The notes below the pieces were generated by a model that was not told the origin of the DNA, ran no database searches, and saw only the letters and a program-made list of their open reading frames with translations. Position numbers and translations under genes: made by a program. From Balneola sp. (GTDB lineage: Bacteria; Bacteroidota; Rhodothermia; Balneolales; Balneolaceae): a stretch of DNA of 64,000 bases. Positions 56,587 through 64,000 of this stretch are shown piece after piece. How positions within the stretch are numbered: position 1 is the stretch's first letter; each line of letters begins with the position of its first letter. Where the stretch lies: positions 310,001-374,000 of the forward strand of contig NZMW01000001.1 of assembly GCA_002694685.1 (NCBI GenBank), given 5' to 3'.

Positions 56587-57638
56587 AAATTCAATCGGAG
56601 TGAAAATACATGCATGTTAGAAATTTGGTACGGTTCCATCACAAAGGCATAATCGATGGAAGGTGAAAATACATCAAAAGGGAGATGAATGGAAAAACCA
56701 CTGCTTAAAGCCCAGCTATCAAAATCCTCAGTGTCAGGTAGTTGCCATCCGGCACGAAGGGTAAACCGCTGATGAGCTCTCCAAGAGCTTCCCAAACGTA
56801 ATTGGGTGGAGCTGGTGTTAATTTCTTCCGAAGAAGTGATAGTAGTTGGGACACCGTCTTCCACAAAAGTAGAGGTTGTTTGAATTTCTGAAGTGTAGGA
56901 TTGGATCTCAAAATCAGCTGAAACGGTAACCTGATTCTTTTGGTAAGCAACGCCGAGGGTATATCGGGTAGGGAAATTGTTTATAACATCACGGCCCTGT
57001 GATAAACCGTATAAGTCCTGAGCATTCCATTTATAATTGGCAAACAAATCTTTGATAGACAAGGCAATATTGGTGTGAATTCCTGCATGATACAATATCC
57101 CAAAATCTAAGCCAACGCCAATTGCGTTGTCCAATTCAGAATGGTAGTCAGCCATATTAAACTTAAGGCCGATTCCTGCTTTCATTTTATTACTGAGCCG
57201 GATTCCAAAAATACTAGATAGCTGATATTCATTGATATCAAATAAACCGGTTGAGTAACCGCTGACGGTTCGCCCATCGATGTCTTGCACACCTGTTCTA
57301 AGCAGATTAAATGATAAGCCAGCCGTTGGAGGGAGTTTAAATTGAACTCCTGAGCTCTGAAATATCCGGTCAAATTGTAGGGCCCCTATACTGAAATCAG
57401 CTTGGCGCTTGTCGATAAGCATGGCTGCCTGAGCTGGGTTGTAGTAGGAATAAGCGCCTTCCGTTGTAACGGCCGACATAGCATTCCCCATAGCCATTCC
57501 ACGGGCGCTATAGCCAATTCTGTTGGATGCTCCAGCAAAACCACCATTTTGAGCATATAAAGAAGGAGAGATCAACAAGGCGATAAGCAGTGGAAAAAAT
57601 ATGAGAGCTCTATTTTGATATCTGTGTGAAATCTTCAT
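56583..57638 (-). CDS. PorV/PorQ-family outer-membrane barrel, second of pair
   Basis: 351 residues, signal peptide 1 to about 29. The mature start SNRIGYSARGMAMGNAMSAV followed by YSYYNPAQAAML is the PorV signature (small-residue MG/NPA motif); about 14 strands follow, ending MHVFSLRLNL. It shares one base with the upstream propeller gene. In Porphyromonas PorV carries type IX cargo to the sortase PorU; here it may serve the neighbouring propeller protein. Confidence 0.8.
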   Translation of the reverse strand: MKISHRYQNRALIFFPLLIALLISPSLYAQNGGFAGASNRIGYSARGMAMGNAMSAVTTEGAYSYYNPAQAAMLIDKRQADFSIGALQFDRIFQSSGVQFKLPPTAGLSFNLLRTGVQDIDGRTVSGYSTGLFDINEYQLSSIFGIRLSNKMKAGIGLKFNMADYHSELDNAIGVGLDFGILYHAGIHTNIALSIKDLFANYKWNAQDLYGLSQGRDVINNFPTRYTLGVAYQKNQVTVSADFEIQSYTSEIQTTSTFVEDGVPTTITSSEEINTSSTQLRLGSSWRAHQRFTLRAGWQLPDTEDFDSWALSSGFSIHLPFDVFSPSIDYAFVMEPYQISNMHVFSLRLNL

Positions 57639-59299
57639 TAATCCACCACCAAAATTTTACCGTTCACTTGCCTGCTTCCGTTTTCAATCACATAGATATA
57701 AGGTGCATTAGCTACTTTGCGTCCTTTACCGTCAAGTCCATCCCAAACAGCTTCATAGGTTCCGGGCGGGAAAGAATTATTTTCGACTTCACGAACTAAG
57801 TTCATTCCAAAGTCAAAAATTCTGACTTTAACAGTACTTTGATTCTTCACCTCAAACTTAATTCGAACCAATTCGTGAACAGTAGGAGAGAACGGGTTTG
57901 GGTAGGCATAGGTATTAACATCCCGTCCCTCATCATGTATATTACCGCCTTTAAGTGGGAAGTTGACGCGAGTGATTTCCCAGTTATCAAAAGTTTGCCC
58001 AGCTGTACAACACTGGTGAGAGGCGATTCCATCTTCTGTTGAAATCCAAATTCTATCGTTTGTTGAAGTTGCCGAGTAATACACTGCAGAAGGCTTAATA
58101 AAAGTATTTGGGCTTCTTATCTCAGGAGATTTGATCCAGGTATCCCCACCATTGGAAGATATAAAAAGTCCATTCTCGCCTGTAGCGAAAACATATCCAT
58201 CTTTAAACCCAATATCGTTGATACGTTCGCCAACGAGCATCTGAGTAAATGTTTCACCACCGTCATCTGTATAAACAATCCCTTGTTTTTCGACTCCAGC
58301 CTCAATTACACGGTTGGTCATCCAAATTCTATTGGTACTGGGTTCTTCTTTAATTTCAATAACCCAATTCCCAATCAGTCCATCTACAGAACCATCAAAC
58401 ACAATGTGAGACCACCTGATGCTATCTGTTGGGGCAGTCAGAGCGTTGTCCGAAACGTTTACTCCATTTCCGGTTCCAACCCAAACCCGATTTTGGGTAT
58501 CAATGTAAACCCCAAATACTCTGAGATTGAATAAGAAATCACTTCTTGGATCATATCTGTTAATTTGAACGCTACTTCCTGTTGAGAGGCTAAGGTTCGA
58601 GCTCCACAAATAGTCTTCTTCTGGAGTAAGTTCAGAGACATTATCAGGCGGAAGGATGACTCTTTCCCATGTTTGTCCAAAATCTGTGCTTCGCAATAAG
58701 CCGCCACTAAAATTTGCTGAGAAAACTACCTCGTCCTTAAAATCAACTTCATAAGGAGGGGACAGCTCTGGGACTGTGAATCGTATTCTATTGTAAGTTA
58801 CTCCGCCATACGTAAACTGAATGTCACAATCAGGGTCGTAATCATCAAGACTCGAAGGCTGTTCATAATCCGGATCAGAAGAAAAACATTTAGAAGGAGG
58901 GTCTGGATCGGTTACATCTGGCTCAAATCTCCATGAATCTCCTCCATCAACAGAAAAATAATAACCAAAAGCTGTTTGTGGAGAACCTTCAGCATCTGAA
59001 TTTGTATATCCTAACCCAGCCAGCACAGTATCTTGCCCAAGTTCTAAAGAATAAACCCGTCCAACATTGTCCGTTACACTATCAGCACCTTCTGGGCGGA
59101 ACCATTCAGATGCGTTACCAATATTTCTGTTTAGCTCGGGGCTGATCCAGACGGTGTCACCATAAGCAAGAATGGTACTCACACCGTTAAAACGAATAGT
59201 ATTGAAGGTTTCTGTATTTTCGCCCAGCGGACCATATACTTGAGCTAGACCCATAAAAGGGATGAGTATAAAAGTAAAAGCAACTAATAATTTTTTCAT
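57638..59299 (-). CDS. Secreted BNR-type beta-propeller with FlgD-like C-terminal sorting domain
   Basis: 553 residues, signal peptide 1-20 (MGLAQ). Asp-box repeats VDGGDSW, STDFGQTW, DDGGETF and SNGGDTW mark a beta-propeller over about 90-440. Residues about 465-553 form an Ig-like FlgD/type IX sorting tail opening AYPNPFSP and ending GKILVVD. Probably a type IX cargo displayed on the surface. A propeller plus sorting domain beside PorV/PorQ also recalls PorZ, which binds anionic lipopolysaccharide, but the length is shorter and I cannot show homology. Confidence 0.78.
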   Translation of the reverse strand: MKKLLVAFTFILIPFMGLAQVYGPLGENTETFNTIRFNGVSTILAYGDTVWISPELNRNIGNASEWFRPEGADSVTDNVGRVYSLELGQDTVLAGLGYTNSDAEGSPQTAFGYYFSVDGGDSWRFEPDVTDPDPPSKCFSSDPDYEQPSSLDDYDPDCDIQFTYGGVTYNRIRFTVPELSPPYEVDFKDEVVFSANFSGGLLRSTDFGQTWERVILPPDNVSELTPEEDYLWSSNLSLSTGSSVQINRYDPRSDFLFNLRVFGVYIDTQNRVWVGTGNGVNVSDNALTAPTDSIRWSHIVFDGSVDGLIGNWVIEIKEEPSTNRIWMTNRVIEAGVEKQGIVYTDDGGETFTQMLVGERINDIGFKDGYVFATGENGLFISSNGGDTWIKSPEIRSPNTFIKPSAVYYSATSTNDRIWISTEDGIASHQCCTAGQTFDNWEITRVNFPLKGGNIHDEGRDVNTYAYPNPFSPTVHELVRIKFEVKNQSTVKVRIFDFGMNLVREVENNSFPPGTYEAVWDGLDGKGRKVANAPYIYVIENGSRQVNGKILVVD

Positions 59300-60103
59300 T
59301 TATTCAATAATACTAAATGTGCTTTTTACGGTATCACTTACCAATCCACCTCTGTCAATGGCAAAATATTCCAGATCATAATCCTGTAGTTGATTTGATG
59401 AATTGATCTGTAGACCCAGGGTGAAGGTAGAGTCATTGGCTGCGGGGTCACCACCGTTATCTCCATCATCATAAAGCTGAAATGGAGATCCTGAAACCTC
59501 ACTACCAGTTTGTTGGCTTATTAACCTCATATAAACTCCTTCAATAGTATCCATGCCTTCATCGTCAAATACTTTAGCCTGAAATGCTACTGCTCTGTTA
59601 CCCTGATTTGGTCGTATTATAGATTCGGGGTTATTTACACTGATAATTGTAGGAGGGACGACGGAAAAACCGGAAATTTTTAACTTCCCTTGTGCATAAC
59701 TGGTACTTGAATTGTCTCCGGAAATTCTCAGATACACGATGTAATCACTGAAAAAAGTAGTTTTAGTTTCGAAGGGAATGGTTTCCTCATAAAGATTAGC
59801 CGTGGAGCTTTCAGTCAAAGTTCGTTGTAAAACCAATTCATCTGTTGATCGGTTGAATACTGAAAGAGTAAGCTGCTCATCATTTCCAAGATTAATAGTG
59901 GAAGCCTCAAAAGATACCTGAACGGTAGTGTCTTTAATTCCGTCGTTTGCAGAAGTAAAGTTGACCTCAGAGGGAGTAATCTCAAAATTAACTATAGCGG
60001 ATGTATCCTGGAAAATTTCGTCCGGACCTGCAGTCTGGTCGCATGCAATAAAACCAAGACTTAAAAATGCCAAAAGAGTACCGTAGATGAATAGGTGCTT
60101 CAA
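59300..60103 (-). CDS. Surface lipoprotein with Ig-like repeats
   Basis: 267 residues, TTG start, lipobox ending at Cys21 (LGFIAC). The mature part has two beta-sandwich-like stretches (about 38-140 and 150-265) with a DDGDNGGDPAANDSTFTL loop rich in acidic residues that could bind calcium. No family is recognised with certainty. First gene of the nine-gene unit; its stop touches the start of the propeller gene. A -7-like box lies at 60173. Confidence 0.7.
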   Translation of the reverse strand: MKHLFIYGTLLAFLSLGFIACDQTAGPDEIFQDTSAIVNFEITPSEVNFTSANDGIKDTTVQVSFEASTINLGNDEQLTLSVFNRSTDELVLQRTLTESSTANLYEETIPFETKTTFFSDYIVYLRISGDNSSTSYAQGKLKISGFSVVPPTIISVNNPESIIRPNQGNRAVAFQAKVFDDEGMDTIEGVYMRLISQQTGSEVSGSPFQLYDDGDNGGDPAANDSTFTLGLQINSSNQLQDYDLEYFAIDRGGLVSDTVKSTFSIIE

Positions 60104-60172
60104 AATAATATAGCTGCTAAAAGATTGATCTGTAATGGTAAGGATTCATCATTCTTAAATCCAATACGGTTT

Positions 60173-60180
60173 CAAACTTA
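60173..60180 (-). promoter_or_regulatory. Possible -7 element of the lipoprotein operon
   Basis: On the minus strand TAAGTTTG (60180-60173) matches TAnnTTTG exactly, but the -33 box 20 bases upstream is not TTG. The leader would be about 65 bases. Confidence 0.35.
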
Positions 60181-60200
60181 TTAAATTGTGGAAGTTGATA

Positions 60201-60231
60201 TTGCATGTACTCTATGATGCCGTTATATTCG
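60201..60231 (+). promoter_or_regulatory. Promoter of the trp operon
   Basis: TTG (60201-60203), 20 bases, TATATTCG (60224-60231), five of six fixed positions of TAnnTTTG. Transcription would begin about at 60237, so the leader peptide ATG at 60239 would lie at the very 5' end of the mRNA. Confidence 0.55.
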
Positions 60232-60238
60232 TCGCGTT

Positions 60239-60313
60239 ATGAAAAACCAAATCGTTCAACTTAATTCTTGGTGGTGGCCTGTTGTAGAAAATAACAGTGG
60301 GTCTCGTATGTGA
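60239..60313 (+). CDS. trpL: trp operon leader peptide
   Basis: A 24-codon reading frame, MKNQIVQLNSWWWPVVENNS then GSRM, with three consecutive Trp codons at 60269-60277. Three Trp codons in a row just before a terminator and trpE are the hallmark of ribosome-mediated attenuation. The frame has no recognisable Shine-Dalgarno sequence, and the promoter lies so close that it is probably read as a leaderless message. The codons after the Trp run contain the first arm of the antiterminator (60293-60302). Confidence 0.9.
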   Translation: MKNQIVQLNSWWWPVVENNSGSRM

Positions 60314-60374
60314 TTGAGCGATAGAGAAAGAATGTAACCAAACCCACTGTTCCGCCGGAATTGTGGGTTTTTTT
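60293..60374 (+). promoter_or_regulatory. trp attenuator: antiterminator and terminator
   Basis: Arm A AACAGTGGGT (60293-60302) is perfectly complementary to arm B ACCCACTGTT (60342-60351). Arm B overlaps the left half of a terminator: AACCCAC (60341-60347) pairs with GTGGGTT (60363-60369), with an inner TTCC/GGAA stem, followed by seven T (60368-60374). A ribosome stalled on the Trp codons leaves arm A free to pair with B and transcription goes on; a ribosome reaching the UGA at 60311 covers A, and the terminator forms. This is a two-hairpin version of the enterobacterial four-segment scheme. Confidence 0.9.
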
Positions 60375-60591
60375 GTTTATAAAAGTTCGTCATTGGTTAT
60401 TCGTGAAGTGTTCATCAGTCTTCAAATAACCAGTAATGACTATAATGGTTCCGACGCGGAGCGTACGGAACCAACAGTGAATTTATTGGCTCAGGTTTCT
60501 AAAGAAATATGATTTGAGTCGCGTATGGACATCGACTCGATCCTGACGCTCTGCGTCGGTGCAACTATTTTGATTGTTGAAATGAAATTCT
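60375..60591 (+). repeat. Palindrome-rich spacer between attenuator and trpE
   Basis: No gene is seen in these 217 bases, but several inverted repeats are: TGGTTATT/AATAACCA around 60391-60432; GGTTCCG...CGGAACC at 60447-60472 with a GACGCGGAGCG core; and CGCTCTGCGTCGG at 60547-60559, which pairs with CCGACGCGGAGCG at 60451-60463 except for one G-U. The wording GACGC(A/G)GAGCGTC between TTCC/GGAA arms resembles REP-type elements of other bacteria. Confidence 0.5.
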
Positions 60592-62052
60592 ATGATTAAA
60601 GAACAATTTTTAAAACTAAGTGACGAATATACAGCAGTACCGGTTTACCGAAGATTACTCGCTGATGTACTAACACCCGTCTCTCTATTTATGAATATAA
60701 GAGAAGGAGCCGAGTTCCCTTTTCTACTCGAATCGGTAGAGGGAGGGGAACAGCTTGCCCGATATTCTTTTATTGGAAGGAATCCATATCAAAAGCTAGT
60801 ATTTGACGGGAGGGAAACGAAACTGGAAACTTCATCAAACAAAGAGACCATTGATATAGGCTACTTTGAGAAGCTGAAAGAACTCACTACAGCTTACTCT
60901 GAACCAACACTCCCTGAATTACCCAGACTCAAAGGCGGTGCCGTCGGTTTTTCAGCTTATGATACTTTTCGGTTGGTTGAAGACTTGCCTAATGTACCCG
61001 ATGATGATTTGAATCTTCCCGAAGCGATTTGGGCATTCTACGACGAAATTTTTGCCTTCGACCATGTGAAACACCAAATCGTATTGATTAAAACAGTTTT
61101 TGTTGAGGAAGAAGAAGACCTGGATCAGGCATATAAAAAAGCTCAGCGAAGTCTGTATGAAATGGAAGCAGCGGCTCTCAGCTCTAATTATGAAAGCAGA
61201 CCCTTTACTATTGATACAGATTCACTTACTAGTAATATGAAACAGGATTACTTTGAGAAGATCGTAGAGAAAGGGAAAGAATACATTTATGAAGGGGATA
61301 TCTTTCAAGTAGTTCTTTCACAGCGGTTTGAAGCTGATATGAGTGGAGACCCTTTTATGCTGTATCGAGCTTTAAGAATGGTTAATCCTTCTCCTTATTT
61401 ATTTTATTTAGATTTTGAGGATTTCCAACTCGTGGGTTCATCACCGGAAGTCTTGGTTAGAGTTCAAGAGGGAGAGACCCGCGTTTTGCCTATTGCCGGA
61501 ACACGACCAAGAGGTAAAACGCATCAAGAAGATTTAGCGTTAGAAGAGGATTTGAAAAACGATCCTAAGGAAGTGGCCGAGCATATTATGTTGGTGGATT
61601 TAGGACGCAATGATTTATCCCGTGTATGCAAAGCCGGAACCGTTAAAATGGAACGAAATCAGGTTATAGAGAGATATTCACACGTGATGCATATTGTAAG
61701 TGACGTAGTTGGTGAACTTCAGGACAATCAAACTTCCGTTGATGCTCTGATGCAATGTTTCCCTGCAGGCACGGTTAGTGGAGCCCCTAAAATCAGAGCC
61801 ATGGAGATTATTGACGAACTTGAGCCAACTAAGCGTGGCACATATGCTGGTGCAGTCGGTTATTTCGATTTCTCAGGAAATATGGACACCTGTATTGCCA
61901 TTAGAACCATGGTTGTAACAGGAAACAAAGCCTATATTCAGGCCGGTGCCGGGATTGTAGCCGATAGTAATCCCACCAAAGAATTTGAAGAAACACAAAA
62001 CAAAGCAGGCGCACTTATTCAGGCGCTTAGCGTAGCTTTAGATATTCAATGA
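60592..62052 (+). CDS. trpE: Anthranilate synthase component I
   Basis: Converts chorismate to anthranilate with ammonia from TrpG. The 486-residue protein has the Trp-feedback motif LLES (45-48), the [10 protein letters not shown] and [10 protein letters not shown] chorismate-domain motifs, and [11 protein letters not shown] near 388, so it should be both feedback-inhibited and attenuated. First structural gene after the attenuator; it overlaps trpS by ATGA. Confidence 0.96.
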
Positions 62053-63041
62053 GCGATACTAAAACAATTTTATCCGGAATTCAGCCTTCAGGCAAACTTC
62101 ATATTGGAAATTATTTCGGAGCCATCCGCCAGCATATTCAAATGCAGGAGAAGGGAGAGGCTTTCTATTTTATAGCCAATTATCATTCACTTACGTCGCT
62201 GAATGATGGAAAACAACTTAAACAGAATACCCTTGATGTTACGCTGGATTATCTGGCTTTGGGTCTGGATCCTGAAAAAGCGACGTTTTTTGCTCAGTCT
62301 GATGTTCCGCAGGTTACCGAGCTAGCCTGGATACTTGGAACTTTAGCTCCAGTTTCTATGATGGAAAAAGGCGTTTCGTATAAAGACAAGATCGCAGCTG
62401 GTCTCAACCCTAACATTGGCTTGTTCACGTATCCAATTCTTCAGGCGGCAGATATCCTGATATACCACTCAGATGTTGTGCCGGTGGGAGAAGATCAAAA
62501 ACAGAATATTGAGATTACACGTGATTTGGCTGGTAAGTTTAACCATACTTTTGATGGGGAATACCTCAAGCTTCCGGAAGAGCACATAGTGAAGTCGGTT
62601 GCCATAGTACCGGGTACCGATGGACGTAAAATGAGTAAGAGCTACAAAAATACCATTAATATTTTTGCGGAAGGAAAGGCCTTAAAGAAACGTGTGATGT
62701 CTATTGATACTGACTCTACGCCACTTGAAGATCCCAAAGATCCCGAAACAGATAACGTATTTGCTCTGATCAAGCTTTTTGCTGACAAGGAAACACAGCA
62801 AGAGATTGCTAAGAAGTATAAAGCGGGTGGTTATGGCTACGGTCACGCTAAACAAGAACTCTTGGGGATGATTGAAGAATATTTTGGTGAAGCCAGAGAA
62901 CGCAGAAAAGAATTAGCCAAAGATTTAGATTACGTGCACGATGTTCTCCGGGAAGGTGGTAAGAAAGCTCGTGAAAGAGCTGAAACTGTCATGCAACCGA
63001 TTAGAGAAGTAACCGGTATTGTGAGGCATTTTAACTTATGA
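62049..63041 (+). CDS. trpS: Tryptophanyl-tRNA synthetase
   Basis: Charges tRNA-Trp. The 330-residue class I enzyme has HIGN at 18-21, GEDQKQNIE near 148 and KMSKS at 194-198; the length is normal. Its position between trpE and trpG, with four-base overlaps on both sides, puts it under the trp attenuator, so shortage of charged tRNA-Trp should raise the synthetase as well as the biosynthetic enzymes. Confidence 0.97.
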   Translation: MSDTKTILSGIQPSGKLHIGNYFGAIRQHIQMQEKGEAFYFIANYHSLTSLNDGKQLKQNTLDVTLDYLALGLDPEKATFFAQSDVPQVTELAWILGTLAPVSMMEKGVSYKDKIAAGLNPNIGLFTYPILQAADILIYHSDVVPVGEDQKQNIEITRDLAGKFNHTFDGEYLKLPEEHIVKSVAIVPGTDGRKMSKSYKNTINIFAEGKALKKRVMSIDTDSTPLEDPKDPETDNVFALIKLFADKETQQEIAKKYKAGGYGYGHAKQELLGMIEEYFGEARERRKELAKDLDYVHDVLREGGKKARERAETVMQPIREVTGIVRHFNL

Positions 63042-63601
63042 TTTTAATAATTGATAACTACGACTCATTTACCTACAACCTGGTCCATCTGGTAGCTGCA
63101 GAAACCGATGATTATAAAGTTATCCGAAACGATGCTATGACTTTGGAAGAAGTTAAAGAGCTAAAGCCGTCGAAGATCTTAATTTCACCCGGACCGGGGC
63201 GACCTCATGAAGCGGGAATCACTGAAGAGATCATAAGAGAACTAGGTAAAGGGACTCCAATTTTAGGCGTTTGTCTGGGGCATCAGGCCATTGGGGAAGT
63301 CTTTGGAGCTAAAGTAGTTCATGCCCCTAAGCTCATGCACGGCAAAGTCTCAAAAGTTTCACATGATGGGAAATTTATATTTGATGGGGCCGAAAAAGAT
63401 TTTATAGCAACCCGCTACCATTCCCTGATTCTAGACCCCGATACTATTCCAGATGTTCTCGAAATTACCGCTCATTCTGATGATGGAGTAATTCAAGGTG
63501 TCAGGCATAAGGAATTCCCCATTCAGGGCATCCAATTTCACCCCGAAAGCATTTTAACCACCGAAGGACCTAAACTCATTTCAAACTGGTTACGACAATA
63601 A
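63038..63601 (+). CDS. trpG: Anthranilate synthase component II (glutamine amidotransferase)
   Basis: Supplies ammonia from glutamine to TrpE. The 187-residue class I amidotransferase has the oxyanion motif SPGPGRP (50-56), Cys79 (GVCLGHQAIGE) and His168/Glu170 (FHPES). A protein this similar can also serve 4-amino-4-deoxychorismate synthase (pabA). It shares one base with trpD. Confidence 0.95.
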   Translation: MILIIDNYDSFTYNLVHLVAAETDDYKVIRNDAMTLEEVKELKPSKILISPGPGRPHEAGITEEIIRELGKGTPILGVCLGHQAIGEVFGAKVVHAPKLMHGKVSKVSHDGKFIFDGAEKDFIATRYHSLILDPDTIPDVLEITAHSDDGVIQGVRHKEFPIQGIQFHPESILTTEGPKLISNWLRQ

Positions 63602-64000
63602 TGGATTTCAAAAGCATATTAAATAAACTTTCTTTCTCTGAAGACCTAAGCCAAATCGAGGCCGAAACAGCTCTGAACCTTATCATGACAGGTGAAGTTT
63701 CTGAGGAGCAAATTGCTGCTTTTCTTACAGCTATGCGGCTTAAAGGTGAAACGGTGGAAGAACTCACTGCTTTCGTAAAAGTAATGCGTTCTAAAGCTGT
63801 TAAAGTTGATGTAGATATCAAAGGAGCAATTGACTTAGTAGGAACGGGAGGAGATCAGTCAGGTACATTCAATATATCTACAGCATCGTCCTTTATTACG
63901 GCTGCAGCTGGAGTTGCAGTTATCAAGCATGGAAACCGCAGTGCATCCAGTAAATGTGGAAGTGCAGATGTTTTGGAGCATTTAGGAGCTTCTATAGAGC
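63601..64000 (+). CDS. trpD: Anthranilate phosphoribosyltransferase, cut by window edge
   Basis: Second step of the tryptophan pathway, joining anthranilate and PRPP. The ATG overlaps the trpG stop by one base (TAATG). The 133 visible residues include the N-terminal helical domain and the PRPP loop GTGGDQSGTFNIST (81-94), then KHGNRSASSKCGSADVLE (109-126). The rest lies beyond the window. Confidence 0.95.
   Translation, partial: MDFKSILNKLSFSEDLSQIEAETALNLIMTGEVSEEQIAAFLTAMRLKGETVEELTAFVKVMRSKAVKVDVDIKGAIDLVGTGGDQSGTFNISTASSFITAAAGVAVIKHGNRSASSKCGSADVLEHLGASIE

Follow-up and report, generated by a model that had tools for sequence, protein, structure and literature searches.

What governs expression of the tryptophan (Trp) biosynthesis operon that begins near the end of the 64,000-nucleotide (nt) stretch of Balneola sp. 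DNA analyzed here (contig NZMW01000001.1; hereafter the window)? Our analysis indicates that positions 60239-60374, upstream of trpE, very probably constitute a ribosome-mediated transcription attenuator of trpESGDCFBA. This assignment is strongly supported by a conserved leader peptide with three consecutive Trp residues (WWW), by covariation of both the antiterminator (A:B) and terminator (B:C) helices, and by the trp operon that lies downstream.

Anatomy of the trpE leader

The elements of the leader, with the evidence that places each of them, are as follows.

60239-60313, + strand: leader peptide open reading frame (ORF) MKNQIVQLNSWWWPVVENNSGSRM; read from the sequence and kept in relatives
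60269-60277, + strand: Trp sensor, three consecutive TGG codons; read from the sequence, with most columns invariant or nearly so in alignments A1 and A2 (defined below)
60276-60285, + strand: region 1, the 5' strand of the 1:2 (anti-antiterminator or pause) hairpin, GGCCUGUUGU; predicted fold
60293-60302, + strand: arm A of the antiterminator (2:3), AACAGTGGGT, within the leader ORF; sequence, duplex and covariation
60294-60303, + strand: region 2, the 3' strand of the 1:2 hairpin, ACAGUGGGUC, overlapping arm A; predicted fold
60311-60313, + strand: TGA stop codon of the leader ORF; read from the sequence
60342-60351, + strand: arm B of the antiterminator (2:3), ACCCACTGTT; sequence, duplex and covariation
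60340-60370, + strand: intrinsic terminator hairpin B:C (3:4); fold, covariation and a generic terminator scan
60368-60374, + strand: terminator T-run, seven T; read from the sequence

These assignments agree with much of what an earlier, sequence-only reading of this DNA had described. The WWW leader peptide can be read at 60239-60313, with its TGG codons at 60269-60277. The antiterminator, said to have 10 perfect pairs, joins 60293-60302 to 60342-60351 through 10 Watson-Crick pairs, the outermost of which (60302:60342) is unpaired in 22 of the 32 leaders of the family (A2). The B:C terminator and its T-run can be read as well (60340-60370, with seven T at 60368-60374), and a generic scan reports a terminator-like site at 60351-60367. 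The stop codon, described as 9 bases beyond arm A, begins at the ninth base after that arm.

Conservation of the leader in Balneolales and beyond

A Trp-codon leader ORF was found directly upstream of trpE in 71 of 72 Balneolales loci, the window's own included. The Trp codons are arranged as WWW, WWWW or WW, and as WRW in L015; the sole locus of the 72 without a Trp leader is L018. The 72 loci comprise 35 upstream regions from a set of 37 genomes (our own and 36 relatives) and 37 loci from a genome collection; the two collections share genomes, some of them present twice, and 63 of the 72 loci have distinct last 120 bases. All 37 genomes match trpE at E<=0.001, paralogues included, and the region upstream of the best match was read in 35, G017 and G036 having no match at E<=1e-80. 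Four loci with no usable sequence upstream of trpE (L061, L072, L079 and L081) were excluded, and L087 was also left out. The leader of L070 was removed by a 60-residue filter and found by eye; it is counted among the 71 and enters no alignment. The same filter was applied to 38 more distant trpE loci, in which the same scan found no Trp leader just before trpE; three of these have an ORF with WW at least 300 nt upstream, and three more have an ORF with two separate Trp residues. Merging 15 groups of identical leader regions and dropping L078, whose leader equals that of L021 by eye, left 54 distinct leaders. Alignment A1 holds all 54 and was made with MAFFT without structure, A2 holds the 32 Balneolaceae-type leaders and A3 the 21 leaders of sister families; L051 is in neither, and the division between A2 and A3 was made by kinship and the look of the arms.

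Searched over the class at E<=0.01, a covariance model of the leader, R1, finds a match in 141 of 244 genomes. At E<=1e-4 it matches 105 of 128 Balneolales genomes by hand count, and nine of the other 23 belong to one genus, g4. In our own genome R1 gives one strong match (95.8 bits), followed by one at 32.9 bits; there are 30 matches at E<=1, and the seven next-best look like ordinary terminators at gene ends. Within the class and outside the order, 19 genomes match at E<=0.01, and a WWW leader precedes trpE in all six that were inspected. A search of 394 phylum genomes gives 78 with a match at E<=1e-4, 26 of them outside the class. Of those 26 we read 20: in eleven, trpE or trpB is preceded by a Trp-rich leader, and the other nine have no trp gene downstream and resemble other terminators.

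Two alternative helices and a 1:2 hairpin

The A:B duplex has a computed energy of -16.5 kcal/mol; with the A side shuffled by dinucleotides 200 times, this energy is never reached. Covariation of A:B in relatives, named beforehand in the sequence-only reading as a test of its proposal, is seen over the order: across the 54 leaders of A1 there are 42 two-sided cells against 18.3 in shuffles, 76.9% of cells are paired, and the covariation score is 0.296 against 0.153 (0 of 500 shuffles), with slid controls no higher than 0.074. Within A2, 89.1% of A:B cells are paired and the score is 0.160 against 0.122. The terminator behaves similarly, B:C in A2 having 31 two-sided cells against 7.2 and a score of 0.254 against 0.102. 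Because the shuffles take no account of kinship among the leaders, the slid controls give the fairer comparison; these still favor a structure taken from one alignment row. As read from the alignments, then, A:B and B:C both show compensatory changes, A:B over the whole order.

These data bear directly on the simplest alternative, that an ordinary intergenic terminator happens to follow a small ORF by chance, with no Trp regulation. Terminators of similar shape are common, as the nine of 20 phylum matches that lack a trp gene downstream illustrate, and the 144-nt region as a whole folds only modestly better than its shuffles (z -1.69; 10 of 200). Such an accident would leave unexplained why tandem Trp codons are kept before trpE in 71 of 72 loci and why the pairing between the two arms covaries. 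On the strength of this conservation and covariation we reject a chance terminator, whose probability we put close to negligible.

The minimum-free-energy fold of 60237-60380 further pairs 60276-60285 with 60294-60303 through 10 pairs, 4 of them G-U. Region 1 of this 1:2 hairpin begins inside the last Trp codon. Taken alone, the hairpin has an energy of -8.9 kcal/mol, reached by 7 of 200 shuffles, and in the sister families (A3) its counterpart covaries, with a score of 0.257 against 0.164 (0 of 500 shuffles) and slid controls no higher than 0.114. In A2 the register of the hairpin shifts between genera, as judged by eye. The earlier description had the leader lacking a separate anti-antiterminator hairpin and being simpler than the enterobacterial one. 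The first statement is wrong and the second is not supported: the predicted fold contains a 1:2 hairpin, as in the classical model, and its counterpart in the sister families covaries, which gives the layout of the classical four-segment attenuator. Four of the hairpin's ten pairs are G-U, which is perhaps why it was overlooked.

A probable leaderless start

Two promoter elements precede the leader ORF.

60201-60206, + strand: -35 hexamer TTGCAT; read from the sequence, with a TTG-N17-TAnnnT geometry kept in relatives
60224-60229, + strand: -10 hexamer TATATT, ending 9 nt before the leader ATG; read from the sequence, geometry kept in relatives

This promoter, TTGCAT-N17-TATATT, agrees with the E. 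coli consensus at 8 of 12 positions and is absent from a generic scan, so the claim that it is a promoter rests on conserved geometry. A TTG-N15-19-TAnnnT pair occurs in 53 of the 54 leaders, with a spacing of exactly 17 nt in 49, and the -10 box ends 5-10 nt before the ATG in 52. Of 50 control ORFs from the window, each 150 codons or longer, four have such a pair and none has it at that distance. These counts use a rule-based start for L048 (TTG) and the first of two ATGs for L021, which for that reason is scored as a miss; the 54 leaders are related and thus are not 54 independent promoter cases. Farther away, TAnnnT stands 6-9 nt before the ATG at five of six loci in the class outside the order by script, and at the sixth (L170) by eye, and TAnnTTTG lies 5-9 nt before the ATG in 5 of the 11 Trp leaders read in the phylum.

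Given this geometry (52 of 54 leaders, 0 of 50 controls), the leader mRNA is probably leaderless; we infer a start of transcription at or within ~3 nt of the leader ATG, with the ribosome loading on the leaderless message. The same Trp attenuator might instead be served by a Shine-Dalgarno-led or internal start, transcribed from a promoter further upstream. In Bacteroidota leaderless messages are the minority: they make up 5.5% of mRNAs in Flavobacterium psychrophilum (PMC9723704, in excerpt), and ~3.7% of 5' untranslated regions in B. thetaiotaomicron are shorter than 10 nt (PMC7366714, in excerpt), figures that, with the failure of the generic scan to find a -35/-10 site before the leader, lend this some weight. 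Against it stand the 17-nt spacing and the placement of the -10 box described above, and the fact that this box sits where a Shine-Dalgarno sequence would lie. We consider a start of this kind unlikely.

Proposed operation of the switch

In the attenuator that we propose, scarcity of charged tRNA-Trp would stall the ribosome on the WWW codons, where it would cover region 1. Arm A (region 2) would then be free to pair with arm B, blocking the terminator and allowing read-through into trpE. With plentiful Trp, the ribosome would run on to the stop codon, a short way beyond arm A, and cover that arm, and if no ribosome were present, region 1 could pair with arm A. In either of these cases arm B would pair with C, and transcription would stop at 60368-60374. 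The operon includes trpS, which encodes tryptophanyl-tRNA synthetase, so the switch would control both Trp synthesis and Trp charging. That a ribosome at the stop codon masks arm A, which the sequence-only reading had proposed in place of a separate anti-antiterminator hairpin, remains plausible as a step, and the classical model includes it as well.

We modeled ribosome occupancy by removing the RNA under the ribosome, on the assumption that the RNA becomes free 13 nt downstream of the first nucleotide of the codon in the A site; modeled pairing values are scaled to the pairs of the duplex, so that some exceed 1. With the ribosome stalled on the first, second or third Trp codon (W1-W3) and RNA made to the end of B, modeled A:B pairing is 0.93-0.94 in the window and averages 0.95, 0.95 and 0.90, respectively, over the 54 leaders. 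With the ribosome at the stop codon, modeled B:C pairing is 0.96 in the window and averages 0.96 over the 54.

Results that weigh against the attenuator

Several observations count against this reading. Genus g4 has lost the leader and has kept the terminator just before trpE (L018 and L181-L188, 9 of 9 genomes). The energetic case is uneven across leaders: 12 of 54 have an A:B energy that more than 10 of 200 shuffles attain (at most 10 of 200 in the other 42), and 27 of 54 have a 1:2 energy that more than 10 of 200 attain (at most 10 in the other 27). In A3, 91.8% of A:B cells are paired with little covariation (0.064 against 0.046, 29 of 500 shuffles), and 1:2 gives a weak signal in A2 (0.204 against 0.174, with 0.156 when slid by +3). 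On A1 and A2, RNAalifold recovers the terminator as its sole large helix; A:B and the complete 1:2 are missing from its output. Such an outcome is expected of helices that are mutually exclusive and of shifting register; because of it, A:B and 1:2 were tested with named structures, each taken from one sequence of its alignment.

The modeled pairings are no more uniform. L039 is lowest, with A:B at 0.05-0.24 even when the ribosome is stalled, and just 38 of the 54 leaders show a gain in A:B above 0.3 upon stalling at W1. Without a ribosome, and with the window RNA running to the end of arm B, A:B reaches 0.93 and outcompetes 1:2, the mean of A:B over the 54 leaders being 0.41 in this state; in full-length RNA at equilibrium B:C wins even with the ribosome stalled, leaving A:B at 0.02-0.03 in the window. 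Since B:C prevails at equilibrium even then, we infer that antitermination must be kinetic, chosen during transcription as in the classical model; and since 1:2 loses to A:B at equilibrium, much must depend, in this genome, on masking by the ribosome or on 1:2 folding early. Lastly, neither Rfam model of a Trp leader recognizes the element: RF00513 (Trp_leader) is over its cut-off nowhere in the 37 genomes, and RF01692 (Bacteroid-trp) has no match in 60000-60600 at E<=10.

Relation to known Trp leaders

The classical enterobacterial trp attenuator (RF00513) shares with the Balneolales leader a Trp-codon peptide, the 1:2, 2:3 and 3:4 helices, a U-run terminator and a place before trpE. The RF00513 model aligns at full length to 60263-60376 with 20.5 bits, short of its gathering score of 41; below the cut-off it matches many places other than trp leaders. 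Compared with the E. coli trp leader (described partly in PMC1183508, in excerpt), the Balneolales one is probably leaderless, its arm 2 is translated and its stop codon lies past arm 2, trpS lies inside the operon, and no TrpR was found in our own genome. Bacteroid-trp RNA (RF01692), listed as a cis-regulatory motif in a table of Weinberg et al. 2010 (PMC2864571, in excerpt), is likewise a Trp leader RNA of the same broad group, from which the Balneolales version differs in having its own arm sequences. None of the 37 genomes exceeds the RF01692 gathering score of 49 bits, and one reaches 30.1 bits. Of 20 loci tried with RF01692 one is called, L202, a phylum locus found with R1 (49.8 bits, just above the cut-off); the phylum Trp leaders L192, L195 and L210, tried alongside it, are not. 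The Trp-rich leaders read outside the class accord with Bacteroid-trp RNA and with an excerpt of PMC9723704, which sees 'strong clues' that amino-acid operons of Flavobacterium psychrophilum are preceded by leader peptide attenuation.

Leaderless Trp leaders have precedents in other phyla. The leader transcript of Sinorhizobium meliloti likewise begins at the trpL ATG, with Trp codons before trpE (PMC7298713, in excerpt), and Streptomyces lividans TrpL1, MFAHSTRNWWWTAHPAAH, is transcribed leaderless (PMC8079986, in excerpt), like the leader predicted for Balneolales. In the excerpts of those two reports the starts come from transcript data, whereas the Balneolales start is placed by promoter geometry alone. 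Sinorhizobium rnTrpL, which starts with the trpL ATG and acts in trans (PMC7298713, in excerpt), has the same layout as the RNA predicted here, and it raises the prospect that the terminated RNA of ~135 nt, or its peptide, is the main product and acts in trans like rnTrpL/peTrpL, beside attenuation. By eye, the leader peptide shows little conservation apart from WWW and the stretch that arm A encodes, which speaks against a role of this sort, and we regard it as distinctly unlikely.

Among the papers listed by our literature search, none deals with a Trp attenuator in Balneolales, Balneolaceae by name having been a small part of that search. Lopatovskaya et al. 2010 (cited in PMC4833913) is reportedly a survey of attenuators in bacteria and may cover related groups. 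The principle of attenuation is textbook knowledge, and Trp leaders are already known in Bacteroidota (RF01692). The Balneolales leader is a real, well-conserved, classical four-segment Trp attenuator that the Rfam Trp leader models do not call in the order.

Other regulators of Trp synthesis

Might the operon be controlled by TRAP, a T-box or TrpR, with the leader a relic? TrpR-type proteins do occur in the class, where 7 of 244 genomes have one over the cut-off. TrpR (PF01371) is absent from our own genome and over the cut-off in 1 of the 37 genomes; TRAP (PF02081) is found in 0 of the 37, our own included; and no Rfam family, a T-box included, reaches its gathering score in the window, nor is there a T-box among the four Rfam matches at E<=10 in 60000-60600. 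TRAP and the T-box were rejected on these grounds, and control by any of the three, with a relic leader, is very improbable. The only genome of the 37 with TrpR over the cut-off is G012, a g4 genome without the leader. An exchange of attenuation for TrpR in g4 was considered and dropped: over the class, TrpR is present in 1 of 9 g4 genomes, several of the nine being incomplete.

The trp operon and its surroundings

The genes downstream of the attenuator within the window are the following.

60592-62052, + strand: trpE; TIGR00564 above cut-off
62049-63041, + strand: trpS, tryptophanyl-tRNA synthetase; TIGR00233 above cut-off
63038-63601, + strand: trpG; TIGR00566 above cut-off
63601-64000, + strand: trpD, running past the window; full length (L214) above cut-off

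In the genome, trpC, trpF, trpB and trpA follow trpD, each above its curated cut-off, and the predicted operon is thus a complete trpESGDCFBA. At 71 of 71 Balneolales loci trpS follows trpE in the same orientation; the distance between the two never exceeds 462 nt and is no more than 60 nt in 37. The source assembly is 3.95 Mb. The nearest named records share 88-91% identity with its trpE (among them Gracilimonas mengyeensis 91%, G. amylolytica 89%), and NCBI places Gracilimonas in Balneolota, Balneolia, Balneolales, Balneolaceae; judged by this gene, the source genome is Gracilimonas-like and of the order Balneolales.

Terminator and trpE are separated by 216 nt (60376-60591), the longest such distance among L001-L030, with L003 nearly equal. 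Two short dispersed repeats lie in this gap, at ~60446-60473 (four near-copies elsewhere in the genome) and ~60529-60562 (five); a repeat finder detected no inverted repeats in 60376-60600 at the settings used. No plasmid record matched the leader. Upstream, the end of the window ORF at 57638-59299 on the - strand presumably resembles a type IX secretion sorting domain or a FlgD-like tail.

Variant leaders were encountered at other loci. Several g4 loci retain promoter-like TTG...TATATT stretches by eye, and a CTAG-containing stretch precedes the terminator. In L189, from a single incomplete genome (G112), MDKSYYPLTEATN replaces WWWP, with two Tyr codons at Trp-codon positions and both arms apparently kept, again by eye. 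Six related Balneolales loci (L163, L164, L165, L166, L167 and L177) have short Cys-rich ORFs, such as MCCMCMCCCMHMPGGSGTDMRK, followed by terminators. Pfam searches with the first 130 residues downstream gave NIR_SIR_ferr (L163), a CitMHS-type transporter (L164), a tetrapyrrole methylase (L165) and rhodanese (L167), and L166 and L177 look alike by eye. These Cys-rich ORFs, lying before genes of sulfur-related look, are candidate Cys attenuators; one pattern search of our own genome returned no Cys-rich leader.

Stop codon position and basal read-through

The position of the stop codon relative to arm A, with arm ends as drawn by the duplex program, varies within the order. Over the 54 leaders it lies 5-9 nt past the arm in 31, 1-2 nt past in 3, inside in 19 and before it in 1. 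The distribution follows kinship: of the 33 Balneolaceae-type leaders, 31 have their stop 5-9 nt beyond arm A (the exceptions are L011 and L012), and most leaders of the sister families have it inside the arm. Theory associates a downstream stop with low basal read-through (Elf and Ehrenberg 2005, in excerpt). Balneolaceae-type leaders resemble that design in putting the stop just past region II; the theory, as excerpted, concerns E. coli and Salmonella leaders, and Balneolales are compared with it by leader layout only. A link between a stop past arm A and the absence of TrpR is suggestive only, because the sister families also lack TrpR.

These results place a classical Trp attenuator across Balneolales, where two Rfam Trp leader models call nothing over cut-off, and the probable leaderless start together with the stop past arm A makes it somewhat more interesting than a routine annotation. 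We propose tentatively, as a possibility rather than an expectation, that Trp synthesis and charging in Balneolaceae may be controlled by attenuation alone, through a leaderless leader whose stop codon, unlike that of the sister families, lies past the antiterminator arm. If this were true, the Balneolaceae leader would be a natural realization of the low-basal-read-through design predicted for attenuators that work without a repressor. Since the order offers two natural stop positions, inside and past the antiterminator arm, the 2005 prediction on basal read-through would be testable not solely by construction but also by comparison.
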